A stretch of 64,000 nucleotides of DNA from Actinernus sp. WN-2022 (lineage: Eukaryota > Cnidaria > Anthozoa > Actiniaria > Actinernidae), in contig JAOWCC010001634.1 in assembly GCA_030867875.1 (NCBI GenBank), positions 103,705,321-103,769,320 of the forward strand, in the 5' to 3' direction. The notes under the pieces are model-generated. The model saw only the letters and a list, made by a program, of their open reading frames with translations. It was not told where the DNA came from and ran no database searches. Position numbers and translations under genes: made by a program. Position 1 is the first letter of the stretch. The number at the start of each line of letters is the position of its first letter. This document shows, one piece after another, positions 1-58,904 of the stretch.

Positions 1-521
1 AGGACTCCATGTTGTGTCAGAATGTCAACATCTAATGGAATCCTATACTTTGAACCACATGCAGTTAGGAGCGCGTTGTCTGCAGCAGATGAAGTACTTG
101 CGTCACCAGCTTTCGATCGTAGCTTATTCAAGTTCTCTGATTGAATGCCTTGTTGTATTCTAGACTCTCTCTCCTGCGTAGATAGGTATACATCGGAGTA
201 TGTTTGTAGGAGGTCTGGCCTGACAAGGTCTTCTACTGTTTCAGCTCCCATCCTACAGATTCTACGCATGACCAAACAGCGTCCAACGTTCGAAACGACT
301 CTGTTATTCACATGTCCACCAGATAGTACGATGTCGCCCAATAGCGCTAAGCTACCAGGTACTAGTACTACATCTTCTGCTAGCTTTGGAACTTCTACGT
401 ATAGAGTCTCACCTGGATTGGCAGATGATCGAGTGAAAGTTTTCCTATACAAGTCTCGCGGAGCCTTGAGTGCATGAGGCTCTCTTCGTACTTGTGTGGG
501 ATCCAATGTTAACGAGATCAT
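1..521 (-). CDS. Capsid-like structural protein, N-terminal 173 residues (partial)
   Basis: An uninterrupted minus-strand frame runs from an ATG at 521-519 to the window edge, so the C-terminal part is missing. The start is supported by the promoter just upstream, shared with the plus-strand gene at 556. The first 90 residues are strand-rich with few charged clusters and contain a short hydrophobic/Gly stretch (VLVPGSLALLGDIVLSGGH, about residues 52-70) typical of packed beta strands; a helical, charged segment follows (about residues 95-145). From general familiarity with predicted proteins of coral and hydra polinton-like/adintovirus-like elements I think this is the major capsid (double jelly-roll) protein, but no search was run. 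Head-to-head position with a membrane protein and closeness to a second jelly-roll candidate fit a morphogenesis cluster. It could instead be another virion protein. Confidence 0.6.
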   Translation of the reverse strand, partial: MISLTLDPTQVRREPHALKAPRDLYRKTFTRSSANPGETLYVEVPKLAEDVVLVPGSLALLGDIVLSGGHVNNRVVSNVGRCLVMRRICRMGAETVEDLVRPDLLQTYSDVYLSTQERESRIQQGIQSENLNKLRSKAGDASTSSAADNALLTACGSKYRIPLDVDILTQHGV

Positions 522-555
522 GTTGAATATAACTATATATGTAGATATGTTTAAC
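522..555. promoter_or_regulatory. Bidirectional viral promoter between divergent genes
   Basis: The gap between the minus ATG (521) and the plus ATG (556) contains TATAACTATATAT at 528-540, the same AT-rich core found before the genes at 3332/3374, 4059 and 7379. With only 34 bp between the two start codons, one element must serve both directions. Function is inferred from recurrence at gene starts. Confidence 0.55.
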
Positions 556-1647
556 ATGGCCTCTGAGGGTAGGTATGATGAAAGAACTGATGAAGCTGAA
601 AGAGGAAGAGACTACGACAACGATGATACTGTCAATGAAGAAGCACGGAAATTGGCGTCAGACTCTACGAATGTGGATCCGAGTGAATCATTAAACCTGA
701 AAACTAGACGCGACTTCGCCAAGGAAGGTGCTCGACCAAAGAATCGGGAAACCTCGTTTACCGTAGAAGATAACGATTACTTCGACGAACTCGTTGCGGA
801 GGATGAGGATAGAATCAAACATCCGAAATTTAGCGATCGCCGCGTAGTCTTCAAAACAGGCACATCGGATGAAATGAAACAAATGCTATTCGATACTGTA
901 TGGAAACACTATGCGGATGTAGGGATTCGTGGAGACCTTGAGATAACTAAAGTATGGGAGGCCGATAAGGAACGGGGCAGAATCTATCTTCACGCATTTG
1001 GAAGTAAAGAGAAGCCCATACCTTTGACCACAGTGAAGGGTGAAAGATATCAAAGTATGGGTAAAGATCTCAAATTTGCCCTAGGCCCTACAGATGCAGA
1101 AAGAGAAGACCAAGTCGTCCAAGGTCAAGAAAAGGCCACTGCACATCTCGAAATGGAAGATAGCATACTTCAAGATCTAACGTCAACTGAGGATCAGAAG
1201 GAAGCGGCTAAGAAAGAGAAAGTACACATCCATAACGAAATAGAATTACTCGAACGTCAAGAGGGAGCCATACTAGAACGTATGTCGCTACGTGAAAGGA
1301 TCAAATACATTTTCAGAAAGCATGGAATGACCGTTCTTGCAGTGGTAACTTCCGTTGGCGCTATCGTTAGTACGATAGTTTCCCTGTTGGCGAGATCCGT
1401 ACCGAAACCAGTAAAGGCTGGTATCGATAAAGCAGCAGATGCAGTAAAGAAGGGATTGCAAACGACTGGGGGGTTGTTGAAAGAAATGGGAAAGAAACTT
1501 GGACAGATCCTACCTGGAATGATTGGATCGATTGCGAGTTTCATATTTACTATTGCTGGTAAAGCTCTGGGAGTACTAGCACAGAATGTTTGGTTATTCA
1601 TCGTAGCAATAGTGGTGATCACGATAGAGCAATACAAACGACGTTAA
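556..1647 (+). CDS. Viral coiled-coil protein with C-terminal membrane segments
   Basis: A 363-residue open frame. I place the start at ATG 556 (MASEGRYDE) because the frame extends upstream only through the shared promoter and into the opposite gene's coding sequence; ATG 547 is an alternative. In order: an acidic, charged N-terminal part (residues 1-75); a mixed alpha/beta middle part (about 90-185) with the local sequence IYLHAFGSKEKPIPLTTVKG; a charged helical, probably coiled-coil stretch (about 200-255); one hydrophobic segment (about 258-280); an amphipathic Lys-rich linker; and a strongly hydrophobic C-terminus with one or two spans (about 318-358) ending in basic QYKRR. This suggests a membrane-inserted virion or morphogenesis protein. 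Its TAA overlaps the stop of the convergent gene by two bases. The family is not named; a similar layout occurs in cnidarian viral-element proteins as far as I recall. Confidence 0.75.
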   Translation: MASEGRYDERTDEAERGRDYDNDDTVNEEARKLASDSTNVDPSESLNLKTRRDFAKEGARPKNRETSFTVEDNDYFDELVAEDEDRIKHPKFSDRRVVFKTGTSDEMKQMLFDTVWKHYADVGIRGDLEITKVWEADKERGRIYLHAFGSKEKPIPLTTVKGERYQSMGKDLKFALGPTDAEREDQVVQGQEKATAHLEMEDSILQDLTSTEDQKEAAKKEKVHIHNEIELLERQEGAILERMSLRERIKYIFRKHGMTVLAVVTSVGAIVSTIVSLLARSVPKPVKAGIDKAADAVKKGLQTTGGLLKEMGKKLGQILPGMIGSIASFIFTIAGKALGVLAQNVWLFIVAIVVITIEQYKRR

Positions 1648-3332
1648 CGAAACAACATCCATGCAATTCCAGCTGCGGCAATGGATGTCACTGCGAGATT
1701 AATTTCATGTTGTGGGGCAGCCTTTTGTACGGGATCTTGTTTCTTGTGCGTGACAGCCTTTGGTACAGGAACTCGTTTCTCGAGATGCGGCACCAATTTC
1801 TTATCTGGTGGTCCTTTCATAGGAAGAGGTAGGTGTCCTTTGCCTTCTGCATTGATGTCGTTAGTGCCTAGCACCATATCTTTCGTAGCTTTCGGGATTG
1901 GATTCTTATAGCCATCTTTCTCACTAAGATAGTACACTAGATTGCTTGGCAATAATCGCACGTCTACAGCTATTGCTAGATCGAGCCTCTTATGCGTTGA
2001 CGTTATAGCGGTAAGATAGTTTTTGTAGCTCACCACTAAGTCGTTTTCGAGAATAGCATCTTCGACTAAGCTCTTAAACTTTTCTTGGACGTTATGGCTA
2101 TCTATGATGGATCCGTTCAAGTCGGCTTGAGCACCAAGTATGCAATGTCCAAAAGCCTCGACAGATCTATTCAACCTACCCAATCCAACAGCTGTCAAAC
2201 CCTTTCCGATTGGTGGCGTAAACCAATTGTATTGCTTTCCTTCATGTTCATCGTTCCTAATGAAGGCCACAAGATCGCCCTGATCCTCCTTACCTCCTTG
2301 GTCTGCAAATAAGTTATGTTTCTGAGGCCATGTGGTTGCACCTTTGTCATAGCTTCGGTCTCCATGGACGTTTACGTATCCTCTCGAACCTGGGTACAAA
2401 AGGAATATATCTCCTAGTCCATTATTCCTACCTCCGTGCCATCGGAAATCTGGTGTTCGAGATATACCGAATTCAATGCACAATTTCTCAAGAGCTGCTT
2501 TGTTATAGAGGTTATCCATTTGCTTGAAATGAGAGTCACCAGGTAAAGGAACTCCATGAGTACCACCAAGTTCACGTAGAATTCTTCGTATCGTGAAATA
2601 AACATGGAATCGTAGGAACCCCTGAACGACTGGTGGATACGTTTTGAAAATAGGATCAAACAATGACACTCCACATCCAGAAGTTGCACACCACGTTGCG
2701 AAATTCAATTGTTGAGGCCAATATTTGAAATCCGGACCATGTAACCAATGGTAGGACTCATTTGCTGTCATATGCTTTACGACGGTCTCCTTGAATATAT
2801 TTGGAACGCCTGCTTTGAACTTATTCTTTGAGGTGGCATATATCCATAGATTAGTGAGATCGATATCTTGTGCCGGTCCAGTAGAAGGAACTGCTGTAAT
2901 AGGATACTTCGCACTCCTGTCTAGGGTCAACGTAGATGGGAAACCTTTATGCACATCCCACAACGCATTATCGATGCGTCCTTGAGTGACTGCAGGTAGC
3001 TTGGAGACATCATCGCCGTAAACGACATAGCTAGAATCTCCATCTCGAAACCAAATACTCGTCGAATATTTGTTTGGACCATTTATTTCCGTAGAGACAT
3101 AGAACTTGTGAAGATCTGCATGTGGGTATTTCTTCTTGAACTTCGCTAATAGATTTGCATTCAACGTTGCGACCTCTCTACTTTCCACATCTTCCCTATC
3201 TATCCGAGCTTGCTTCTCTCTCCTAGCTCGATTCTCAGCCTTTGACCGTATATTAGCATTCGGCGTTGGGACCTCTTCCTCTTCGTCTTTCCCTTCGTAA
3301 TGGTAACTGAAAAGACCTCCGGACCTCCTCAT
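1644..3332 (-). CDS. Large viral protein of unknown function with C-terminal membrane anchor
   Basis: A 562-residue intact frame starting at ATG 3332-3330, right beside the bidirectional promoter at 3333-3373. The N-terminus carries a charged Lys/Arg/Glu-rich helical stretch (about residues 28-60). The large central domain (about 75-460) is rich in Trp, Tyr, Gly and His; a Cys-containing patch, WCATSGCG, lies near residue 220. Its C-terminal part (about 385-450) is helical. A Pro/Lys-rich linker follows (about 485-540), then a single hydrophobic segment at the extreme C-terminus (NLAVTSIAAAGIAWMLF), as in tail-anchored proteins. I remember similar proteins predicted in coral genomes beside viral-type genes, but cannot name a family or a catalytic motif. 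A structural or virion-membrane role is inferred only from the neighbours. The stop codon overlaps that of the convergent plus-strand gene. Confidence 0.75.
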   Translation of the reverse strand: MRRSGGLFSYHYEGKDEEEEVPTPNANIRSKAENRARREKQARIDREDVESREVATLNANLLAKFKKKYPHADLHKFYVSTEINGPNKYSTSIWFRDGDSSYVVYGDDVSKLPAVTQGRIDNALWDVHKGFPSTLTLDRSAKYPITAVPSTGPAQDIDLTNLWIYATSKNKFKAGVPNIFKETVVKHMTANESYHWLHGPDFKYWPQQLNFATWCATSGCGVSLFDPIFKTYPPVVQGFLRFHVYFTIRRILRELGGTHGVPLPGDSHFKQMDNLYNKAALEKLCIEFGISRTPDFRWHGGRNNGLGDIFLLYPGSRGYVNVHGDRSYDKGATTWPQKHNLFADQGGKEDQGDLVAFIRNDEHEGKQYNWFTPPIGKGLTAVGLGRLNRSVEAFGHCILGAQADLNGSIIDSHNVQEKFKSLVEDAILENDLVVSYKNYLTAITSTHKRLDLAIAVDVRLLPSNLVYYLSEKDGYKNPIPKATKDMVLGTNDINAEGKGHLPLPMKGPPDKKLVPHLEKRVPVPKAVTHKKQDPVQKAAPQHEINLAVTSIAAAGIAWMLFR

Positions 3333-3373
3333 GTTGAAGCTATACGTATATATAGTTATACCTTCAACATATA
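3333..3373. promoter_or_regulatory. Bidirectional promoter with palindromic layout
   Basis: Between the start codons at 3332 (minus) and 3374 (plus) the sequence reads GTTGAAG (3333-3339), CTATACGTATATATAGTTAT (3340-3359), then CTTCAAC (3362-3368). The outer heptamers are exact reverse complements and the core reads as the same promoter motif from both strands (CTATACGTA one way, ATAACTATA the other). This is the clearest promoter copy in the block. Confidence 0.65.
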
Positions 3374-4039
3374 ATGACGATCCTTACTGTCACCACAACC
3401 TTGGCTGACCATACTGTCTACTTCGACGACCCTATTCTTATACGGAACATTTCACTAGTCGAGGTCACTTTCGAGAATAGCTGGTGGAACCTAGAAACGG
3501 AGGCTACGTTCGAGTGGGATACCGGAGGCTTAGGGTTCCCATACAAAATCTATCCGGGGTCTCATAATATACGTACACTCAAGCCCTTCTTCAATGAAGC
3601 TATGTCGAATAAAGTCGTAAGCTTTATAAATAGAGGTAGTAAGAGGGATTGGATCCTAAAGGTTCAGAAAACAATCAAGCTCAGTAAGAATCTCTGCGAA
3701 CTATTGGGTATCGAAGGAAATGAAGATGTGGAGGGAAACGTATCGCTAAAAATTGGACACTACGATCTGGTGATCAAAGATATCAACACAATGTATGTAT
3801 ACTGCGATGTGGTAGATTCCAATTTCTCACTACTAGAGGGAAAGCGATCGAATGTACTGGCTAGCTTTAAAGTACGAGGCAGCTGGTTTGACGTAAATAC
3901 GTATTCTACAACGCCCCCACTACCTGTCCGAGCTCCAGGGACAATGCAAAGCAGCCTTCGCCTTACGATTCGTGATGAGAAAGGCAACGTGGTAGACTTC
4001 CGTGGTCGACCTATACGATACGTGTTGAAGCTTGAGTAA
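3374..4039 (+). CDS. Probable jelly-roll minor capsid (penton-like) protein
   Basis: A 221-residue intact frame starting at ATG 3374 directly after the divergent promoter. The predicted protein is almost entirely beta-strand-like: short alternating hydrophobic runs separated by Gly/Asp/Asn turns, with no membrane segment or coiled coil. Near residue 136 there is a strand IYVYCDVV-like patch (MYVYCDVVDSNFSLL), and the last 30 residues (LRLTIRDEKGNVVDFRGRPI) make a charged turn between two strands before the end. In polinton and polinton-like viruses the single jelly-roll penton protein has this size and strand-rich nature and often ends in such a segment; the assignment rests on that resemblance and on neighbours, not on a search. 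A promoter-like element starts right after its stop codon, before the next gene. Confidence 0.55.
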   Translation: MTILTVTTTLADHTVYFDDPILIRNISLVEVTFENSWWNLETEATFEWDTGGLGFPYKIYPGSHNIRTLKPFFNEAMSNKVVSFINRGSKRDWILKVQKTIKLSKNLCELLGIEGNEDVEGNVSLKIGHYDLVIKDINTMYVYCDVVDSNFSLLEGKRSNVLASFKVRGSWFDVNTYSTTPPLPVRAPGTMQSSLRLTIRDEKGNVVDFRGRPIRYVLKLE

Positions 4040-4058
4040 GCTATACGTATAACGTACA
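4040..4058 (+). promoter_or_regulatory. Promoter of the 200-residue membrane protein gene
   Basis: Only 19 bp separate the stop at 4039 from the ATG at 4059, and they contain CTATACGTATAAC (4041-4053), the same core as in the divergent promoter at 3340. GTTGAAGC at 4024-4031, inside the previous gene's last codons, copies the outer heptamer seen there. So the gene probably has its own promoter and is not simply read through. Confidence 0.5.
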
Positions 4059-4661
4059 ATGGAAGGCGATTCGATTCAACCGTTTCCATCAGCACCAAGT
4101 ATCTATCCACAGATCGCTAGTGACACTGGAAAGAACTTTAGACTGCAAACGATCCGAGACACGCTTTCGGACATAGAAGTTCAAGAAAGGCACTACGAAG
4201 GTGTGCGCAAGAAATATGCACGTTCTCAAGGAATAGTTCATGGCATCGCAGTGATAACTGGAGGTCTATCTGTGATCTTATCTGGATCTGGATTGGGAGC
4301 AGCGTTAACTGGGGTTGGAATAGTGATTGGTCTACCACTTGGAGTTATTGGTGGACTATGTGGATTAATTTCAGCATCTACGACCGTTGGAGCTAAGAAG
4401 TTAGGAATGAAGGTTTCTAAGCATGAAAAGACAACTATGTTGGCAAAGGCAAAAATCAATACGATTCGCGATCTAGTATCGAAGGCCTTACGCGATGAGA
4501 ACGTATCCGACTCAGAATACAGTCTCATCCTGAACGAAGCGAATAAGTATGAGATCATGAGATCTGAAATTCGTCGCAAGGCTTCCATAGGTGAAAAAAG
4601 CATTCGAGCCGAACTCAAGCAAGAAGTGCAAAAGGAAATGCGAGAAAAACTTGGAATGTAA
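4059..4661 (+). CDS. Small Gly-rich membrane protein with helical flanks
   Basis: A 200-residue intact frame. Residues 1-27 are Pro/Ser-rich. Residues 28-58 are charged and helical. Residues 60-112 form a long hydrophobic, Gly-rich region (two spans: about GIAVITGGLSVILSGSGLG and GVGIVIGLPLGVIGGLCGL) that looks like a membrane hairpin or amphitropic insert. Residues 120-200 are strongly charged, heptad-like helix ending in a basic tail. This arrangement recurs in small proteins predicted beside viral-element genes in cnidarian genomes, as I remember it; no named family is claimed. It is the third hydrophobic protein of the cluster, which argues for a lipid component in the virion or a membrane step in assembly. 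Its stop lies 3 bp from the stop of the convergent transcription-factor gene. Confidence 0.7.
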   Translation: MEGDSIQPFPSAPSIYPQIASDTGKNFRLQTIRDTLSDIEVQERHYEGVRKKYARSQGIVHGIAVITGGLSVILSGSGLGAALTGVGIVIGLPLGVIGGLCGLISASTTVGAKKLGMKVSKHEKTTMLAKAKINTIRDLVSKALRDENVSDSEYSLILNEANKYEIMRSEIRRKASIGEKSIRAELKQEVQKEMREKLGM

Positions 4662-4664
4662 GAA

Positions 4665-5657
4665 TCAACGTTTCCTATGAAAGGAACGAACATGGTTCTC
4701 ACTTTCACTTTGCCAAGTCCTACTGCTAGTTAGCCTATGTCTAGTGTAGATTGGTTCGAAGTGGGAATGGTAAGAAGACAACTCCTTGACAAAACGCTTG
4801 ACCGCATTTCCAAATATGCCACATCGCTTAACGACATCCTTAAAAGACATAGACGATCCGGAGCGACGTAGCACCTCGTAACTTGCTCCAACGACTTTCG
4901 TCTTAAGCATTGATTTTGGGCCTATATTGTTTTCCATTGCCGTAGTAACGACCTCGTGGACTATTTGTTGAACGTCCCTAGGTACTACTACAAGATCTAG
5001 TTGTAGGAAAGTCGTTGCAATGTGAGGAACTATGCGCTCAGCATCCAAGTCTACATCAATCTTATCGTCGTCACACAGAGAACGTATGAAGACCTCTCCA
5101 CTATGAATGCCTTCGTTTCTTAGTTGCATGAAGCGAGCGACCTCACCTTTAGATCGGACGAATCCACATTGTATGCATGCATGGTAGAGTAGAGCAGCTA
5201 AAATATTTTTCTTAGCATCGCTACGCTTGAGACAAACTTTCATTACTTGGGTGAATGCGTCGGCTACGATTTCTAACGCGTTCATAGGGAACGATAGGTC
5301 ATAACTTTGTTTATAAATAGTGTTGTATGCTCGTAGTTCTTGTAGGAGCGTTCGTCGTTTCAGTTCTATGTCATCATCGCTTTGCTTTGGTTTTGCGTGG
5401 TCTAGATCACTTTGATACTTAAACCCGTCCGGACCTACTATACGCAGTCGAGTAGTAATAATGTCGATCTTAGTTTCTTCACATGGTTCGACCTCGGAAA
5501 CAAGCCCACATGTGGGACACACGAATTCCGTTCCTTGTATTTCAAAGGGGCAGAGACAATCAGAACATGTTTCACTGGTGTTAATATGTTCCACTTGTGG
5601 TTTGATATTCAGGCTTCTACGAATTCCAGGCCCAAACAATCTGACTAGCTCGTCCAT
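4665..5657 (-). CDS. TFIIB/VLTF3-like transcription factor
   Basis: A 330-residue intact frame from ATG 5657-5655. An N-terminal zinc ribbon is plain: Cys31, Cys34, Cys47 and Cys50 (CSDC, then 12 residues, then CPTC) followed by GLV, the usual layout of TFIIB and of the late transcription factor VLTF3 of large DNA viruses. Two helical, cyclin-like repeats follow: about residues 110-190, including AKKNILAALLYHACIQCGFV then KGEVARFM, which matches the repeat's helix pattern and the specificity-helix region of these families; and about 210-295, with LKTKVVGASYEVLRR. It should recruit RNA polymerase to viral promoters. Host TFIIB genes are spliced, whereas this frame has no intron and lies within the viral cluster, so it is the element's own gene. 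Whether TFIIB or VLTF3 is the closer relative cannot be settled by eye. Confidence 0.75.
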   Translation of the reverse strand: MDELVRLFGPGIRRSLNIKPQVEHINTSETCSDCLCPFEIQGTEFVCPTCGLVSEVEPCEETKIDIITTRLRIVGPDGFKYQSDLDHAKPKQSDDDIELKRRTLLQELRAYNTIYKQSYDLSFPMNALEIVADAFTQVMKVCLKRSDAKKNILAALLYHACIQCGFVRSKGEVARFMQLRNEGIHSGEVFIRSLCDDDKIDVDLDAERIVPHIATTFLQLDLVVVPRDVQQIVHEVVTTAMENNIGPKSMLKTKVVGASYEVLRRSGSSMSFKDVVKRCGIFGNAVKRFVKELSSYHSHFEPIYTRHRLTSSRTWQSESENHVRSFHRKR

Positions 5658-5690
5658 GATACAACTATAGATGTCGTACGTTCAATAGAA
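5658..5690 (-). promoter_or_regulatory. Promoter of the TFIIB/VLTF3-like gene
   Basis: Immediately upstream of the start codon (plus-strand view) lies ACAACTATAGATGTCGTACG (5661-5680), a degenerate form of the block's ATAACTATA core with a CGTAC element seen also before the gene at 4059. It is squeezed between the start codon and the hairpin that ends the neighbouring minus-strand gene. Confidence 0.4.
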
Positions 5691-5692
5691 AA

Positions 5693-5747
5693 AAAAAAGG
5701 AAGAATGAAGAGGGCCACGCAACGACCTTCTTCATTCTTCCTTTTTT
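5693..5747 (-). terminator. Hairpin 3'-end signal of the zinc-protein gene
   Basis: A perfect 19-bp stem: left arm 5693-5711, right arm 5729-5747, with A-run on one end and T-run on the other and a 17-base loop containing CACGCAACGAC. It starts 18 bp beyond the stop codon of the minus-strand gene at 5766-6203. A near copy ends the next minus-strand gene (6368-6422). It may act as a transcript-end hairpin, comparable in form to the hairpin polyadenylation signals known in mimiviruses; that role is inference. Confidence 0.6.
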
Positions 5748-5765
5748 CTTTTTTCGTGGCTATTC

Positions 5766-6203
5766 CTAAGCGTCCTTCTCGTTCCTCAAGGCAGCCAACA
5801 CCTCGTTGAGCACATGGTTGAGAGACTCTCCGAGACCTTCCACTGGTTCCAGCACTCTTGATTCAGCGGGCAATGCTACCTCCGGTTCCACCATGTTTGG
5901 CTCCTCCTTTCTTGGATCCTCTAGCTTCTTGCTGGACTTCTTAGCGCGTTTTATATAGACACCGGGACACTTCATCTTGATGGCGAGACGGTCGCATCCT
6001 GAGCAAAGCTCGTAATCAGTACGACATCCTTTACCGCACTTCGAGCATGGTACATATGGGGCACAGCCTTTTGAGATTTGGTAGTTATGCTGGGAACAGA
6101 ACTTCGTTGTCTTCGAAATCCTCTTTGGGCATTTCAAGTCCTTCCCTCTCATCAACCAATCACAAGTTATTGCGGTGTCTACGTTCGAGTCCTTCTTCGA
6201 CAT
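5766..6203 (-). CDS. Cys-rich zinc-binding protein, unknown function
   Basis: A 145-residue frame starting at ATG 6203-6201 (MSKKDSNVDT). Residues 14-78 hold nine or more Cys and one or two His (CDW...C...FCSQH...CAPYVPCSKCGKGC...LCSGC), arranged as probable zinc knuckles or a small treble-clef/ring-like fold. After a Lys-rich stretch (about 80-96) there is an acidic, Pro/Glu-rich linker and a short hydrophobic amphipathic helix near the C-terminus (SLNHVLNEVLAALRNE). The family is not recognised. A role as a DNA/RNA-binding or transcription-elongation accessory protein is possible because it sits beside the transcription-factor gene. No clear TATAACTATA motif precedes it, unlike its neighbours. 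Confidence 0.65.
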   Translation of the reverse strand: MSKKDSNVDTAITCDWLMRGKDLKCPKRISKTTKFCSQHNYQISKGCAPYVPCSKCGKGCRTDYELCSGCDRLAIKMKCPGVYIKRAKKSSKKLEDPRKEEPNMVEPEVALPAESRVLEPVEGLGESLNHVLNEVLAALRNEKDA

Positions 6204-6367
6204 GTTTGATCTGTATGGTGTTAATGTGTACTAAGATGACAACGAATGCTAATATCGTGGAATAAAGAATATATACTAATACCATTCGGTGGTAATATAC
6301 AGTATAATAATCATTCCTTTAACATATGCTTCAAGTTTAGATTTTATGTACAAGAATGTCTAGTGAC
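6204..6367 (-). promoter_or_regulatory. Intergenic leader with repeat copy A
   Basis: This 160-bp AT-rich gap lies before the zinc-protein gene. It contains ATACAGTATAATAATC (6298-6313), the nearest thing to a promoter, and at 6341-6368 a 28-bp segment (ATTTTATGTACAAGAATGTC and on) repeated exactly at 7506-7533 and partly at 7435-7454. The repeat marks gene-flanking control DNA or a duplicated end segment. Confidence 0.4.
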
Positions 6368-6422
6368 AAAAAAAGAAGAATGAAGAGAGTCACGCAACGA
6401 CTTCCTTCATTCTTCTTTTTTT
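6368..6422 (-). terminator. Hairpin 3'-end signal of the 312-residue gene
   Basis: A perfect 18-bp stem: left arm 6368-6385, right arm 6405-6422, A-run to T-run, with the loop again holding CACGCAACGAC. It lies 18 bp past the stop of the gene at 6441-7379, the same distance as the first hairpin from its gene. Conservation of both stem (GAAGAATGAAG) and loop between two copies implies a sequence-specific signal. Confidence 0.6.
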
Positions 6423-6440
6423 TCCCTCCATTACCTACGT

Positions 6441-7379
6441 TCACTCATCTTCTGCGGCTGTGGCACTATGCTTAGTATTGGCGGCATAAACATCTTGTTG
6501 CTCATACCTATTCCTCTTTGAGGGTTGTTGTACTATACCGATCTCTATGTCTAGTGGGTAGGAAAGTCCCATACTAGATGCACAAATACTTGAGGCGTTA
6601 CAAATACCATCATGAATGGAACCTGGTAGAATGAGTTTGCTCACATTGTCGACGCCTAGACCGCTAGAGTTCTCATCGACTAGAGGTTCATACTTAGTGT
6701 TGTCCCCATCAGCGTACGATTTACTTTTATCAAAGAATTGTCCATTAGGCGTTCCAGTCTTGTAATCACATTTCATTCGCATCCTCATCATGGGATTGGG
6801 TAATTGACATCCAGCATTGGTAGTGGAGTTCGTGGAAATGAACTTTTGGATCATCGGAACCACCTTGGTGTTGGGGACGATGATGGCGTCGTGTGGACTG
6901 CGTTTCCGTGGATTGCGCATACAGACCTTCTCGTTTTCGATTAATTTTCTTATTTCACTTTCAAAGGCCTCATCAAGGTATTCTACTAACTTGAACGTAG
7001 GACTCAACTTTTCATCTGCAGGAAGGTCCAATTCTCCCTTGTCATTTTGCTTAATTGTGATTCCATCTGCCTCAGTAGGTACGAGGGCATTCCACTTTTG
7101 GAATTGGAGGCAAGGATGACGATCACGTTTCTTGCCTGCATCTTGTTCGTTGTGTGGTGCTATCTTTCCCACGTGCTTTTCCCCTTCTAACCGAAAGACC
7201 GCAGGATGAGGTCCATCGCCAATGTCAAAGAATACGGAAATATACTTGCATCCGTTAGGTCCGTTCCTAGGCTTGGTCCAGTCGAACGATATGATGGATC
7301 CATGGGATTGTCCATCTTCTTTGGTCCTTTCTAATGCTTTGATCACATCGCCTACGTTGAAAAGCTTTGAACTCGCCAT
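6441..7379 (-). CDS. Unrecognised viral protein, 312 residues
   Basis: An intact frame from ATG 7379-7377. The N-terminal half (residues 1-130) looks compact and beta-rich (ISVFFDIGDGPHPAVFRLEG, about 47-66). Residues 125-185 include charged helices; 200-225 have a Met/Arg-rich patch (MMRMRMKCDYKTG). The last 80 residues are low in structure, Ser/Asn-rich, and end acidic (AAEDE). No transmembrane segment. A strand-rich body with a disordered acidic tail is a general feature of viral single-stranded-DNA-binding proteins, but no motif proves this and I do not assign it. It has its own promoter core (7391-7403) and a hairpin end, so it is probably strongly and separately expressed. Confidence 0.65.
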   Translation of the reverse strand: MASSKLFNVGDVIKALERTKEDGQSHGSIISFDWTKPRNGPNGCKYISVFFDIGDGPHPAVFRLEGEKHVGKIAPHNEQDAGKKRDRHPCLQFQKWNALVPTEADGITIKQNDKGELDLPADEKLSPTFKLVEYLDEAFESEIRKLIENEKVCMRNPRKRSPHDAIIVPNTKVVPMIQKFISTNSTTNAGCQLPNPMMRMRMKCDYKTGTPNGQFFDKSKSYADGDNTKYEPLVDENSSGLGVDNVSKLILPGSIHDGICNASSICASSMGLSYPLDIEIGIVQQPSKRNRYEQQDVYAANTKHSATAAEDE

Positions 7380-7531
7380 TTTCTCTTCGATATAACTATA
7401 CGTTAGGATAGCTTTAACAGATACTCGAGTTTGGATTTTATGTGTAAGGATGTTGCGGCGATATAACTATATGTAATCATATCTCTAATAGGATTATCGA
7501 GTTGGATTTTATGTACAAGAATGTCTAGTGA
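7380..7531 (-). promoter_or_regulatory. Tandemly duplicated promoter region at the end of the viral block
   Basis: Two successive ~70-bp modules, each with the promoter core followed by a shared segment: TATAACTATACGT (7391-7403) with GGATTTTATGTGTAAGGATG (7433-7452), then TATAACTATATGTA (7462-7475) with the 28-bp segment at 7506-7533. Only the first module is next to a gene start (7379). The second may be a spare promoter or the remains of a lost divergent gene. Confidence 0.5.
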
Positions 7532-7721
7532 CACTTTGAATGACCCTTAGTACCCCACCTAGTAGTATAGTCGGTATTAAAATGATACAACTTTTTGTTG
7601 CACAAGAAAACTCAAAAGTGAATTTCTGAATTCGACTTTTGAGTTTTGTTGTGCAAGAAAAAGTGGTATCATTTTAATACCGACTATACTACTTATAGCG
7701 ATCCTAAAGTCAGTCAAAGTG
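7532..7721. repeat. Long imperfect palindrome at the viral/host boundary
   Basis: The core 7561-7693 is nearly its own reverse complement: the outer 26 bases of each arm (AGTAGTATAGTCGGTATTAA and on) pair perfectly, and the inner arms differ at a few positions (e.g. AACTTTTTGTTGC against CACTTTTTCTTGC). Weaker pairing continues outward to CACTTTGAATGAC (7532-7544) and GTCAGTCAAAGTG (7709-7721). Coding density collapses to its right. It could be a virus genome end, an insertion junction, or simply a MITE. Confidence 0.6.
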
Positions 7722-8640
7722 AATCAAATTTCCGTCGACATTTCCGTTGATCTAGTCGAAAATTGATAAGATATTTCGATTATTCGAAAACCAGCAGAGC
7801 AAGAAGAAATGCCAAGACAACTGCCCTGGAACCCGCAAGCGGTAGCTAGTTTTTATTATATACGGAGCGTTAGCGTTTATACTCCATGGCGAAGCTGTGA
7901 AAATAACACGTCGGAACGAAGCTGTTAAAATCTCAGTTGAAAGTACCACAAACACGCCTGTTCTGCTCATTGATTGGGCGCTCGTTAATTCTTATTTCCA
8001 CGGGTTATTTCAACAGTCGCATGGTAGTTCATATGTATCTGAAGTAGTTCGAAAATCACTCGTTTATGTTTTGATTAACGGGTTTGATTGAATCTGGAAC
8101 TTTCACAGTTTTAGCGGTCGTGCGTGATACACATGAACGGAGCCATAATATGCAAATTTGTTGTGTTTCATACCGTGTACATAGATATCGAGTGCGACGA
8201 AAACCTTTGCAGTTGATTTAGTCGAAAACCTTTGCAGTTGATTTGGTCGAAAACCTTTCCGAGAACCTTACCAACCAAAAGCCATGTAAATTGCAATTTG
8301 ACCGAAGAAATCGTGTCCTCGATTGTGTCCATTATTACAACTAAAAGTTGTTTATTTTATTACTTCGTGCTCAGTAGACTATACATTGCAATCGGCCCAG
8401 AAGAGACAAAGCCAGCAAATGACACACCAGTTTTACGGCAGCTACTGTAAAACTTGAGCTTCAAATTTTAATATTCCTCAGGGCTTGCGAGCTTGATCCG
8501 GCGATGATAGATTAAAATCGGCTAGCTCCAAGGTGAGGAGGCGGCTTTCATTCACAAAAATTATGACCCACCCCTCCCCAAATATATATTATTATGCGCA
8601 CAAAAACCTGCGCGAAGTGGCGATAACATGTCGATTTTTG
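7722..8640. other. Non-coding stretch with a short tandem repeat
   Basis: No gene is recognised. At about 8197-8263 a 27-bp unit (GTCGAAAACCTTTGCAGTTG and on) occurs two and a half times in tandem. Base composition and lack of frames resemble the host part of the window and not the viral block. Confidence 0.5.
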
Positions 8641-8768
8641 GCAGGCATCTCTCTTCCTTTCTCTCTCTCTTCTCTCTCGGCTCCAATCTCCCTCTCTTTT
8701 CTTCACCTGCCACAGGGAGCCCATAATCTGATTTCCTCAAAAATTAGAGATGCCTGCGGAGGAGGCTA
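8641..8768. mobile_element. MITE of the CCTCCTCCGCAGGC family, left end truncated
   Basis: The right end (GAGATGCCTGCGGAGGAGG then CTA) and body match the two complete copies at 62,013 and 62,749. The left end begins only at GCAGGCATCTCT, lacking the first ~12 bases of the terminal repeat. Confidence 0.7.
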
Positions 8769-8787
8769 GGAATTTACCGCGAACTGG

Positions 8788-8832
8788 TCTATTGAAGTTG
8801 AATAATAGGTGAATGATTGAATAAGGGTTGAA
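8788..8832. repeat. GTTGAA minisatellite, left fragment
   Basis: TTGAAGTTGAATAATAGG and variants; the rest of the array continues at 11,453 beyond an inserted element. Confidence 0.7.
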
Positions 8833-9025
8833 TAGGCTTTTTGCAGGACATGGTCACGTGACCATTTTAGCCTGTCAATCAAAAACAATTTGGCGCTAGA
8901 ACAACATGAATGCCAGAAATGGAAGAGCAAGCCAAAATTAGTAAAAAGCCCAAGTTTTAGGTTCATATCTTTAAAACCGAAGGAATGGCAAATTGCTGAA
9001 AACTCTATAATTTAGCTTAATTTAG

Positions 9026-11150: not shown

Positions 11151-11452
11151 TAGCTACAGCTTTCGCAGAGTTTTTGAAAACTCTGTAATTTAGCTTAACT
11201 TAACAAAGTTTGTGAGCCTTTAGTAAAAAAGCCGTGCCAGTCAGCACTGAAAAAAAAGCCTCACAAACTCTGTTAAGTTAAGCTAAATTATAGAGTTTTC
11301 AAAAATTTGCCATTCCTATGAGGCTAAAACTTGGGCTTTTTACTAATTTTGGCTTGCTCTTTCCATTTCTGGCATTCATGTTGTTCTAGCGCCAAATTGT
11401 TTTTGATTGATAGGCTAAAATGGTCACGTGACCAGGTCCTGCAAAGGGCCTA

Positions 11453-11750
11453 TTGAAGTTGGATAATAGTCGAATGGTGCACGAAGAAGGAGGTTGAATT
11501 GAAGTTGAGTGATCAATAGTAGTTGAAATAAGAGGTTGAATTGAAGTTCAATAATAGTTGAATGGTTGGATAAGGGTTGCATTGACGTTGAATAATTATA
11601 AGTTGAATGGTTGAACGAAGGGTTGAATTGAAGTTGAATAATAATTGAGTGGTTGGATGAGGGGTTGAATTGAAGTTGAATAATAGTTGAATAAGGGTTG
11701 AATTGAAGTTGAATAATAGTTGAATTGCATATAATATCAAATAATTGAAT
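11453..11750. repeat. GTTGAA minisatellite, main part
   Basis: Irregular units of about 30 bp built on TTGAATTGAAGTTGAATAAT, eight to ten copies. It is the continuation of 8788-8832, split by the inserted element. Nothing is recognised from 11,751 to 12,035. Confidence 0.75.
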
Positions 11751-37429: not shown

Positions 37430-39130
37430 AAACAGCAACGCTTGACCCATGCAGTTACTTTAAACAGCCTAATTGTGCTATCGTACTTACCAATTTCGTC
37501 AACCTTTCCACGTTTGTCTCGATGGCCATTATTACCGCCAATGGCATTATATATGGAGACCAGGGTCTCTCTGTCCACGAAATCTCTTATTCTCCTGATG
37601 GCTCCTATGCCGGATGTAATCTTTTTGCCTATACTTTCGATATGCTTGTTCCAAGCAAAAACTGATCAATTTCGACACCAACAAGAACCTTACTATGGTA
37701 AACTTGTTTTAAGGAGTTTTGACCAATCTTTATGTTTGGCTGAGCAGCGAGAGTTCTTAGGTTATAGTTGGAGCCGATCAGAAAAAAAATCTTTTTTTGC
37801 CACATTAAGGCTCGATTTGTTTGCTAATAACCATTCCTTGACACACTCAATTTCCCCATTCATGGCCCTCTCAATTTCCTCAGTTGATTGATCAGATGCC
37901 GGTGTTATCAGCAAATAAGCGAGGGGTTGTTTGTTTTAGGCATTCTGGTAGATCATTTATGTACAAAATGAAGAAGAGGGGGCCAAGGATAGAGCCTGGG
38001 GAATTCCGCAGCCAATGTGGCTATCTGCAGACATTACGCCATTAAGCTGGCACATTTGTTTACGATTTGTTAGATAAGATTTTATAAGGTTTAAGACATT
38101 CCCAGTTATACCGTATATTTCTATTTTACGCAACAGTATTTCGTGGTTGACCGTATCGAATGCCTTTTTCAGGTCCAGAAAAACCACCAAATTAAACATC
38201 TCACGGTCCATGTTAGTATACCAGCTATTTGTACTGTCCAGAAGTGCTGAAACAGTAGACTGTAGGCTTCGAAAACCAAATTGGCGTTCACAGAGGAGAT
38301 TGTTCGCCGAGAGGTATTCGTGTAGTTGATCTAATAGGATTCGTTCCATTATTTTACTTTACTTATTGCTGGTAAAATAGAAATTGGCCTATAATTGTCA
38401 GGCAAATTGCGTGGACCATTTTCCAATCATCCAGGAAAACAACAAGAAATAATAGCCTGATTAAAAAAATGTATCTAAGGGATGGAGAAACAGCCGATGC
38501 AGCAACTTTTAGTATTTTGCCAGAGATCTTATCAATGCCAGTGGCTTTGGACTTAGATAGCCCACATAGGTGTTTCTGAACTTTGGCATCATTGGTAACA
38601 GCTCTGAATCGTGACATTTCCGAATGCGGTGGCTTTAACGAAACTTTCAAATGAAACACTTGAATCGGCCATCGTATGGGCAAAGTTAGGTCCAATGTTG
38701 ATGAAATAATTATTGAAGGCTTCAGCTATTTTTTCTGGGGAATTGATATTAACACCATTTAGTTTCAATTCGTTTACATCAGTGCTGTTGCACGGTTTCC
38801 CATGCAAGAAGATTATATTAATTGTTCTCCAGGCATCTTTAGGATTATCCTTCTGGAGCGCAATTTTATCGCGATAATAATTTGTTTTAGCCTGCCACAA
38901 GGCGACATTAACCTTATTTCGGTAAGTTTATAGTCCTGCTAATCTGTGTTCTGTTTAGTTATTATGGCCTTGCATTTTAGCTTATCCCTGATATGTATTA
39001 ACTGTTTTATCTCCTTGGTCAACAAAGCATATGGTTACATGTTTACATTGTCAGTTTCAGTAAAGATATGAATAATATTTTCAGAATATTCCAATACGGT
39101 ACAAAACAAAGCACATATAACGTCCTCTCT
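37430..39130 (-). pseudogene. LINE reverse transcriptase remnant
   Basis: Minus-strand frames read, in order: the linker (KLKCKAIITKQNTD, WQAKTNYYRDKIALQKDNPK, AWRTIN), NYFINIGPNFA, LCGLSKSKATGIDKI, then the palm with QFGFRSLQSTVSALLD, VVFLDLKKAFDTVNHEILL and GCGIPQ. After a frameshift near 37,995 come [14 protein letters not shown] and a damaged catalytic box (FADN where FADD is expected), then a C-terminal region to about 37,430. At least four frame breaks. The endonuclease part is absent. CR1/L2/Rex-like group. Confidence 0.85.
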
Positions 39131-56371: not shown

Positions 56372-57786
56372 CATCACCAACTTCAACAAACCCGTTAGTA
56401 CTCTTAAAATGCGCTGTGTGTGTTATTTTTATTTTTATTCATTTTTTCCGGCGTCGAAAGTGGAAATTGCATAAGAGATTCATTACCGTGCTATCGATAT
56501 GGCCGGATGGATCAGTTTCAGTGTCATATGGCTACCGCACCGTATATGTTAAGTATGTTAAGGCGGCCTGGGGTCATTGACTGAAAATAGGAAAAACACA
56601 TCTTTTCAAGATTATGAGCTAGAACCTTGACAAAAATATGTGAAACTCAGTACATCAATATACCTTCACGTGATAAAGAACCTTAACTAGCGTTTTTGAA
56701 TTTTGGATGATCACGTGACCTATTAACACGAATATCAGAGGGAGAAACTCCTTCTAAAATGGGGTTGCGAGTTTTCGCCAAGTAAACAAGTTACTATATC
56801 CAGTATATTTTGATTACTGATTTCTACAAACTCACGCTTAGAGAATTTGATTATCGTTTACTGTTAAGGGGATATTCAGCAAAACAGGTCACGTTACCAC
56901 ATTCCCCCCTTAATATCTTAATATCTTATCCCCTAATCAATAAAAACAACTCTAGTCGTGATACGATGAGATACGATGTTTCTCAGTGCTGGAAGTCCTT
57001 GCAAAACACTGTAGTTTATGGAATAAACTCATTTATCTCACATCAATAACACAGTAATGGACCTACTTTGCAATTTCCCACTTGCGAAGTCGAAAAAAAA
57101 ATATAGAAAAGAATATACAGAGACGAATTCAAGACTCGGACCCGCTTACGCGGTTCGAGTGACAATTACCATACTCAGTTCTACGCACAGGGATTCCTAT
57201 ATCAATCGTATTGTTGTGGTATGGACCTATCAAGTTATGTTCTTCAATACCTTCATATAAGAAACGTCTGCCTGAGTCATTAAAAATACTTTTATTTATT
57301 GAAGTCCACTCAGTTCAATCCAGATCGTTTGCGCAGCCTTTATGATAGACTTGCTCCAAGTCGAACTTGCTGAGTCACTGGGTAAGCGATTACTGGGTCA
57401 AAAATCGAGCGCGTGAATCGAAGCGAGAGGCGAGTTCGACTTGTTTCACTTGCAGGAAATTGAATCGGGGGATTATGTTTTGGCGCGAAAACACGTTTCA
57501 GGGGCGGAGCTTACATTTCGCTCCTTTGACAAACTCTTTCTGAGTACAATCAAATTGTTAATACCACATCCACGGTCGACTGATTCGACACGTCAACATA
57601 CAATACCTGAAGAATTGACGCTTTGTGATTGGACAAATCTTAGTACGTTATAAGCCACGCCTCCGGTTGGGAAATTAACCGGTACATTTGGCGCGCTGCA
57701 AGTGGGAAAAGTCCTTCCTACCTTTATGCTTTCCTTTACGTTTTCGTCGTTCGACTAACTGTTTGTGTTTTATGTTTTCTTGACAG
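56372..57786. other. Upstream of the NHL exon; no exon recognised
   Basis: No RING or B-box coding sequence is visible, so the earlier exons of the NHL gene lie either left of this region beyond the repeats or in an intron-separated place outside the window. The 3' end is intron-like, with a pyrimidine-rich tract and TTTCTTGACAG. Confidence 0.4.
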
Positions 57787-58904
57787 TCGACCCTCGTCAC
57801 TGTTCAGTTGATAACCTAAAGCGTTCTGTTTACGGATTTGAGCCACAAAGGTTTGATATTACAACAAAGAACGTAAATGGAAACAACTTCTTTTGCCCCC
57901 CGGAGTTAATAGGCGTTAAAGTAGAAGAAAGTACGGTCGACGGAGAAGGACAAATATCCGTAGAAATTTTTAATGGTAAAGATGGAGCTTACCAAGTTGA
58001 GTTTAAGCCAACAAAAGAAGGGAAACACATAGTTACCATCGATGGAGAGGAACTTGAACATGGAACTGTGGATGTTATTAAAAAATTTGAGCCTGTACGT
58101 TCATTCGGTTCTCGTGGAAGTTTAAGTGGACAGTTTTTTGAGCCAGATGGCATTACAGTTGATAATGAAAATTATGTCCTTGTAGCTGACACCAGCAACC
58201 ACCGAGTTCAAGTATTTAATGCGGATGGTCAATACATACGAGAACTCGGTGGCGAGAGAATAATGAACAAACCTACAGGAATCACGGTAAACAAAGACAA
58301 TAATATTATTGTTAGTAACAATTATGATCTCAATGTTCAAGTGTTTACATCAGATGGAAGGCAGTGTATTCGTAGTATTGGTCAGGGGATAGTTACACGT
58401 GCTTGTGGTGTGTGTGTGTCTAGTGATGGTAATATTGTAGTGTGTAGTAGTAGAGATATGCGAGGTGTAAAGATGTTTAGCGAAGAGGGACAGTTACTAA
58501 GTAAAGACATGTTTCCCGCACAAGAGGAAGATGAAAGCCCTCAATATGTCACCTACTCTAATGGTAAATATTTTGTAACATATTATCTTAAACACTTTAT
58601 ACGGGTTTACGATGATAATGGACGATTCGTTGACCAGTTCAGTTTCTATGGAGATAGTCATAATCAATCCTCTGGTCCCATTGGTCTTACAGTGTATAGA
58701 GAACATTATTTGCTGGTGTGTGACCAGTATAATTATCGTGTACAGGTATTAACACTACAGGGAGAATTTCTCGGTTCATTTGGTAGTCGTGGTTTTGATC
58801 GTGGGGAGATGTGTGCCCCAACAGACATTACTGTTCTCTCGGATGGCCGTACTGTGATGTTGACAGACTGGTCCAGCGATTGTGTTCATATATGGCGTAA
58901 CTGA
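57787..58904 (+). CDS. Filamin/NHL-repeat protein, last coding exon (TRIM2/3/71 type)
   Basis: An intact ~372-codon exon. It begins after the acceptor TTTCTTGACAG (57,776-57,786) because no ATG is near and the frame enters from upstream in phase 1. Residues 1-110 (counting from VDPRH) make the filamin-type Ig domain, including AYQVEFKPTKEGKHIVTIDG, which is typical for it. Then come about six NHL blades: FGSRGSLSGQFFEPDGITVD with VADTSNHRVQVFNADG is the first and clearest; the last ends FGSRGFDRGEMCAPTDITVL and HIWRN. In TRIM2/3/71 proteins this part follows RING, B-boxes and coiled coil, binds RNA or partner proteins, and the RING gives ubiquitin ligase activity. The N-terminal part is not in the window, so ligase function cannot be judged. 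Anthozoans carry many such genes. No AATAAA is seen within 200 bp after the stop. Confidence 0.85.

Follow-up and report, generated by a model that had tools for sequence, protein, structure and literature searches.

A Polinton/Maverick in the genome of Actinernus sp. WN-2022, probable member of a recently active and recombining family

Gene content and boundaries of the element

The stretch analysed here, referred to below as the window, comprises 64,000 nucleotides of the genome assembly of Actinernus sp. WN-2022 (GCA_030867875.1, contig JAOWCC010001634.1; G000:C685:103705321-103769320) and opens with a dense block of genes, which we identify as the right half of a Polinton/Maverick element. 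Positions 1-7400 hold seven complete frames (383, 562, 221, 200, 330, 145, and 312 aa) and one partial frame (185 aa), and ATG-initiated frames of at least 140 aa occupy 94% of this interval, against 0–9% of each of the following seven 7.4-kb blocks. In 200 single-base shuffles of the block, such frames covered 0.3% on average and 8.7% at most. The frame density remarked upon in a preliminary description, which was made from the letters of the window alone, is therefore real, and its one partial frame stands, while its six complete frames are in fact seven. The GC content per kb is 43–45% in 1-6000, 40–41% in 6001-9000, and 31–47% beyond; as these ranges overlap across the border, composition alone marks it poorly. 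The right edge had been placed near 7550. The element instead terminates in ...TATACTACT at 7693 and is followed by the duplication TATAG at 7694-7698.

The remaining 8,120 bp of the element lie to the left of the window (G000:C685:103697201-103705320, equivalent to L009:1881-10000, where L009 denotes the left-flank stretch), which brings the whole to 15,813 bp with TATAG on both flanks. The preliminary description had anticipated a polymerase, an ATPase, and an integrase to the left of position 1 and had proposed extending the contig in that direction. With this extension all three were read: a 1196-aa family B DNA polymerase (PolB; PF03175, E 2.7e-12), a 350-aa rve integrase (PF00665, E 5.3e-10), and a 207-aa A32-type ATPase (PF04665, E 5.7e-11). 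Further frames of 143, 116, and 181 aa, as well as the C-terminal part of a 423-aa putative capsid protein, accompany them.

These features are those of a Polinton/Maverick. Elements of this class measure 15–20 kb and carry long terminal inverted repeats (TIRs), here of about 322 bp, and are flanked by target duplications of 5–6 bp, here a perfect 5 bp in 19 of the 21 copies introduced below. The polymerase matches DNA_pol_B_2, a family of presumably protein-primed enzymes, the integrase is of retroviral type, and the ATPase is of the FtsK/A32 packaging type (Pox_A32); all three score above cutoff. The element is classed as a Polinton/Maverick by its size, its ends, and these three enzymes, and the block in the window is its right half because of the inverted ends, the 5-bp duplication, and the PolB, integrase, and ATPase genes to the left. 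The view that viral-type DNA is integrated in an animal genome is thereby upheld by the inverted ends and target duplications. Reference to polinton-like viruses and adintoviruses was too loose for an element of canonical Polinton/Maverick size, and a polinton-like virus devoid of PolB and integrase, the impression given by the window alone, is ruled out by the genes of the left flank.

The outermost part of each TIR is palindromic (window 7561-7693 and L009:1881-2013), as are the ends of the 19 copies for which both ends were located. Judged by recurrence of the inverted tip, the palindrome spans 82–234 bp across copies, and the two ends of copy L029 are unequal. We considered whether the hairpin at 7561-7693 might be an inserted MITE; it is the TIR tip, found at both ends, and the candidate was discarded.

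Identity of the individual genes

Coordinates of the genes and other features in the window are given in Table 1. We take the 423-aa frame to be the major capsid protein (MCP) and the 221-aa protein to be a penton on the basis of position, size, and motifs, no search having confirmed either. The folds expected of these proteins are double and single jelly-rolls, respectively, and neither candidate matched a capsid profile, a PDB sequence, or a usable structure. The preliminary description had named two capsid-like proteins; our searches support no frame as a capsid protein, the 562-aa frame included. Its suggestion of a TFIIB-like gene fared better: the Pfam TFIIB match falls below cutoff (E 0.0042), and a profile built from seven copies found human TFIIB in the PDB with E 0.0017.

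Most proteins of the element had no Pfam match, and PHROGs returned nothing for the eight window proteins. NCBIfam gave only weak matches, far below cutoff, for the six proteins submitted, and a tblastn search of phage records with the 562-aa protein gave none. Among PDB sequences there was no match for the putative MCP, queried with its first 185 aa only, or for the putative penton, queried both as a single sequence and as a profile, and no useful match for PolB.

Table 1. Positions of the element's features within the window
Feature	Position	Strand	Remarks
Right part of Polinton/Maverick	1..7693	.	Inverted ends, target duplication, gene content
Putative capsid protein (MCP), partial 185-aa frame	3..557	-	Frame continues in L009; whole in copy L012; true start may be ATG 524
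TATAGTTRTA promoter-like motif	528..537	-	Between divergent putative-capsid and 364-aa genes
Frame listed as 383 aa, about 364 aa from ATG at 556	556..1647	+	Hydrophobic C-terminus; divergent alleles
562-aa protein with C-terminal hydrophobic segment	1644..3332	-
TATAGTTRTA promoter-like motif	3351..3360	+	Between divergent 562-aa and putative penton genes
Putative penton (minor capsid) protein, 221 aa	3374..4039	+	Allele A of four; termini conserved, middle divergent
200-aa hydrophobic protein	4059..4661	+	Lowest pairwise dN/dS of seven genes tested
TFIIB-like transcription factor (330 aa)	4665..5657	-	CxxC...CxxC ribbon and cyclin-like repeat
TATAGTTRTA promoter-like motif	5660..5669	-	Upstream of TFIIB-like gene
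Hairpin and T-run	5689..5751	-	Downstream of 145-aa gene
Cysteine-rich 145-aa protein	5766..6203	-
Hairpin and T-run	6368..6422	-	Downstream of 312-aa gene
312-aa accessory gene	6441..7379	-	F-box/ankyrin frame in this slot in other copies
Right TIR, about 322 bp	7372..7693	.	97.8% identical to left TIR
TATAGTTRTA promoter-like motif	7391..7400	-	Upstream of 312-aa gene, within right TIR
Further TATAGTTRTA copy	7462..7471	-	Within right TIR
TIR tip, 133-bp palindrome	7561..7693	.	66-nt arms, 91% complementary; AGTAGT...ACTACT edges
Target-site duplication TATAG	7694..7698	.	Other copy ends at L009:1880

Copy number, age and integrity of the family

The searched assembly comprises 1,390,003,549 bases in 1772 contigs. 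As genome searches score the best candidates only, the counts below are minimum figures biased in favour of intact copies. For the 562-aa protein there are at least 77 matches with a score, out of 5282 candidates at first look; none is less than 91% identical, and 75 lack a stop. The full-length PolB yielded 39 (the best of 6706 candidates), all at least 99% identical and free of stops. An 80-aa PolB segment was 100% identical in all 150 matches listed (the best of 2029 candidates); the frames around 140 of these measure 1081 aa or more, and those around the other 10 measure 276–723 aa. The middle part of the window's putative penton allele was 88–100% identical in the best 150 of 3532 candidates, one of which contained a stop. 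When merged by position, the four lists amount to at least 330 loci on 66 contigs, a count in which an element split by a long insertion appears twice, close neighbours appear once, and some loci may be partial or belong to related subfamilies. The twelve contigs with the most loci, each of at least 17.5 Mb, carry 261 of the 330, and the other 69 lie elsewhere, many on small contigs. On one contig (G000:C398:38272924-38423630), six PolB copies stand on one strand at distances of 20–50 kb, perhaps as a segmental tandem duplication.

A sample of 20 copies (L012-L031), consisting of right halves and short left ends, was studied in detail and amounts to 21 with the window copy. Both ends were located in all but L014 and L016, whose left tips were not in the stretch examined. 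All 19 two-ended copies are bounded by perfect 5-bp duplications, each of a different sequence, which directly abut AGTAGTATA...TATACTACT. The string AGTAGT...ACTACT stands at the ends of all 19; the ends were found by that string, and the adjoining duplications confirm them. Private substitutions in four genes amount to 0–1.6% per copy within the 21-copy sample. The two TIRs of one copy are 95–100% identical over the aligned stretch, the pair of L029 aligning only partly.

Eight genes in 20 right halves make 160 slots, of which 10 represent absences of the 312-aa gene; in 141 of the remaining 150, the open frame extends across 95% or more of the window protein's length. Left halves were read for the window copy and L029. 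In the latter (L052), all seven genes match open frames, with the PolB and capsid frames cut by the ends of the stretch. Pairwise dN/dS, calculated for seven genes among copies above 90% identity, was lowest for the 200-aa gene (mean 0.115, 171 pairs), followed by the 312-aa (0.19), 145-aa (0.29), TFIIB-like (0.31), 562-aa (0.41), 383-aa (0.48), and putative penton (0.53) genes. Constraint on the genes of the element is real but uneven. The family is large and looks young and recently copied, and the integration in the window likewise looks recent, as the preliminary description had supposed.

Mosaic structure of the copies

Compared with the window in 250-bp steps, the 20 right halves are mostly 90–100% identical, and identity falls sharply in three places: to 53–62% at the putative penton in 14 of the 20, to 56–70% in the 383-aa gene of L024, L026, and part of L028, and to 47–67% in the right-end slot of ten copies. 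Among the 21 copies, 18 full-length putative pentons form four types, at least 97% identical within and 48–64% between types. Type A (221 aa) occurs in the window, L012, L013, L015, L016, and L021; type B (222 aa) in L017, L018, L020, L025, and L027-L030; type C (234 aa) in L019 only; and type D (239 aa) in L022, L024, and L031. The putative pentons of L014, L023, and L026 are broken; they were assigned by hand (types A, C, and D) and excluded from penton distances.

L019, L020, and L021 differ by 0.1–0.2% in the DNA of the 562-aa gene and carry types C, B, and A, respectively, which are 31–37% apart. Conversely, L028 and L029 both carry type B (1.2% apart in DNA), while their 562-aa genes differ by 6.9% and their TFIIB-like genes by 8.5%. 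In pairwise comparisons of L019-L021, the number of differences per 100 bp is 0–1 over about 1.6 kb preceding the cassette, climbs to 35–76 within the cassette core (3500-3799), and drops again to 0–11 over 4000-6000. Between types, dS in the putative penton is 0.59–1.0, while it does not exceed 0.14 in the 200-aa gene next to it or 0.16 in the 562-aa gene. When pairwise distances are compared from gene to gene, their rank correlations range from -0.05 to 0.56. The high dS between types, together with sharp borders on near-identical backbones, points to old alleles that have been exchanged and not to fast change in place.

The right-end slot holds the 312-aa gene in 11 of the 21 copies. Nine of the other ten contain a 225–232-aa frame starting MDYISCLPLEILTKIVEHA or similar; in the tenth, L023, it is truncated. 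In two such frames (L019 and L029), Pfam recognised ankyrin repeats (Ank_2, E 8.9e-18 and 1.7e-13) and, at the N-terminus, an F-box (E 3.8e-6 and 2.2e-5). In large DNA viruses, proteins that combine an F-box with ankyrin repeats divert the ubiquitin ligases of the host, and by analogy the frame found here may do likewise.

The copies are thus mosaics which combine any of four penton-like alleles, divergent 364-aa alleles, and either right-end gene. The main point, which the preliminary description could not see, is that the element belongs to a large family of mosaic copies. In the open-access literature searched, we met neither discrete penton alleles sharing a Polinton backbone nor this Polinton family in Actinernus, and both negatives are weak evidence of absence.

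Expression signals

The motif TATAGTTRTA occurs at seven sites in the element and at none in window positions 7694-64000; under a first-order Markov model, 200 runs produced 0.06 sites on average and never more than 2. Four of the seven sites lie in the two TIRs, so that only five are independent. Beyond the sites in Table 1, the motif is found upstream of PolB, and one site precedes the F-box gene in L019. Each of the 20 other right-half stretches contains 3–5 sites. No site was found at the 145-aa gene or at most left-half genes. The TFIIB-like protein may read these sites as promoters.

A hairpin with a T-run similar to the two in Table 1 lies at L009:6860-6910, downstream of the 143-aa gene and after a tandem repeat. 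The three similar hairpins are possible 3'-end signals.

Remainder of the window

Beyond the element, the window resembles animal DNA. Pfam identifies a TRIM-like host exon with filamin and NHL repeats at 57765-58904, and translation of 37957-38349 suggests a reverse-transcriptase-like fragment of a host retroelement. In the host DNA adjoining the element, arms of inverted repeats (44–97 bp, 93–96% complementary) lie 2.2–2.4 kb apart at 8828-9024 and 11274-11457.

Interpretation and alternative explanations

The block in the window forms the right half of a Polinton/Maverick integrated in the genome, and we consider it quite probable that this element belongs to a recently active, recombining population of virus-transposons. 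Replication of such an element would start at its ends and be carried out by its own PolB. Its own TFIIB-like factor may aid transcription at shared TATAGTTRTA promoters, the A32-type ATPase would package it, and the rve integrase would insert it with a 5-bp stagger; the steps of replication, integration, and packaging are taken from the enzymes present and from known Polinton biology. Mosaics could arise when several copies replicate in one cell and recombine through conserved gene ends. This appears to be their simplest source, with gene conversion as its main rival. The exchange of a vertex protein, if the penton assignment is correct, would suggest that copies spread as virions. Virions, transcripts, and transposition are predictions of this reading.

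Several observations weigh against it. The proteins submitted to Pfam, PHROGs, NCBIfam, and PDB sequence searches brought up neither a capsid profile nor a solved capsid, two single-sequence structure models were unusable (mean pLDDT 30.5 and 35.9), no maturation protease was recognised by Pfam among 15 viral frames or frame pieces, and IMG/VR yielded no relative for the six element proteins queried, the ATPase not being among them. Score-ranked lists favour intact copies. Nine of the 150 gene slots are broken, in six of the 20 copies (L014, L015, L018, L023, L026, and L030), and PolB frames are shortened in at least L016 (470 aa) and L030 (308 aa). In five of the seven genes dN/dS lies at 0.29–0.53, and more distant pairs reach 0.66 (TFIIB-like) and 0.86 (145 aa). 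TIR pairs differ by 0–5%, often more than the private substitutions, so that TIRs cannot be used for dating. Lastly, allele C rests on one full-length copy (L019).

Some alternatives may be set aside with little hesitation. The preliminary description allowed that viral DNA had been joined to host DNA in assembly, and the abrupt boundary it saw, like the many small contigs among those bearing the 69 outlying loci, might suggest free viral DNA or contamination. This is scarcely credible: 19 of 19 two-ended copies have perfect 5-bp duplications, all different, in different host flanks, and 261 of 330 loci occupy twelve contigs of at least 17.5 Mb. It is rejected on the strength of these duplications and because the loci are scattered across contigs as large as chromosomes, and the published assembly was, according to the part of its description used here, made from HiFi reads and Omni-C (PMC10598428). 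Fast adaptive evolution of the putative penton in place, which would suit a protein with a variable middle and conserved ends, as expected of exposed loops, is very improbable and is rejected on dS: the silent sites are equally old (0.59–1.0), those of the neighbouring 562- and 200-aa genes reach 0.16 at most, and the same allele (1.2% in DNA) sits on backbones 6.9–8.5% apart. We likewise give very little credence to domestication, in which the host would retain copies for an antiviral or other cellular role. Most of the genes examined are indeed open across many copies, but so many loci, with clean ends of the mobile-element kind and little private divergence, fit recent insertion better than retention.

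What the exchange of alleles means for the life of the element is a closer matter. The copies may preserve one moment in the history of a Polinton virus population that circulates and recombines sexually, and in whose virions penton alleles of at least four serotype-like kinds and two alternative host-interaction genes reassort on near-identical backbones, the vertex protein being selected by host receptors or immunity; we advance this tentatively, as an idea that falls somewhat short of probable. Alternatively, the family may be an intracellular, vertically inherited transposon, amplified in the germ line without virions, its mosaics produced by gene conversion or recombination between integrated copies. 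We are inclined to doubt this, while granting it appreciable weight: all copies studied come from one host genome, viral contigs (IMG/VR, six proteins) yielded no relatives, the capsid proteins are unproven, and several genes have only moderate dN/dS. Against it, the putative capsid genes are open in most of the 20 copies, and penton-like alleles as old as their dS (0.59–1.0) indicates would be odd for useless proteins, though neither point is decisive.

Significance

To our knowledge, it has long been debated whether Polintons form virions. An animal that carries numerous near-identical copies with largely open genes, and in which discrete alleles of a putative vertex protein move between near-identical backbones, offers a direct natural test of the matter. 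Should the copies indeed stem from a circulating virus, Polintons would be infectious viruses of this animal and not transposons only. The F-box/ankyrin gene, present in part of the copies, points to host manipulation, while the TFIIB-like factor and the shared promoter motif point to transcription from the element's own promoters.

In the paper that describes the genome, unclassified repeats are put at 39% and said to have expanded recently, and the words Maverick and Polinton are absent from its main text (PMC10598428). The family may thus have gone unremarked there.

Comparison with known systems

In the sections of PMC8097293 drawn on here, vertebrate Mavericks share with our element the (AGT)2//(ACT)2 end motif, long TIRs, pPolB, rve integrase, and ATPase, a similar size (mean about 17 kb), and accessory genes near the ends. 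Their duplications are of 6 bp, in contrast to 5 bp in 19 of 19 copies here, and we therefore do not file the element as a vertebrate-type Maverick. Gene order also differs, and no protease was recognised in our element. Of the vertebrate elements 96% are described as defective, with 38 the largest number of intact copies in one genome under stricter requirements (all core genes, TIRs, and duplications); 140 of our best 150 PolB segments, by contrast, lie in long frames, a comparison in which the criteria differ.

As outlined in part of PMC4028283, Polintons generally measure 15–20 kb and encode pPolB, an RVE integrase, and an FtsK-like ATPase, as our element does, together with putative MCP and penton proteins, for which our element has candidates. 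The adenovirus-like cysteine protease, identifiable in 74% of Polintons and thus not universal, was not recognised here (Pfam, 15 frames or pieces), and the TFIIB-like factor and F-box/ankyrin slot stand outside the conserved set named in that portion of the paper. Adintoviruses, in the passages of PMC11071296 consulted, are similarly animal-associated and possess PolB, integrase, and putative hexon and penton genes; their PolB has an N-terminal OTU-like domain and their integrase a C-terminal chromodomain, for neither of which Pfam gave a match in our proteins up to E 1.

Lineage-specific expansions and modular gene turnover link the family to the cryptophyte polinton-like viruses, at least as presented in the relevant parts of PMC12220804, where one 5-nt duplication is given among those described. 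These have algal hosts, and their attachment parts are fibre proteins and not penton alleles. The endogenous virophages of Cafeteria (EMALEs) also resemble our family, with many integrated copies, mostly intact genes, recombination, and gene exchange, and the same source, as far as its text was used, gives duplications of 5–6 bp for mavirus and Maverick/Polintons (PMC8547959). EMALEs differ in their protist host and virophage genes, and whereas they exchange the whole capsid module, the copies in Actinernus carry discrete penton alleles, as we take them to be, on one near-identical backbone.

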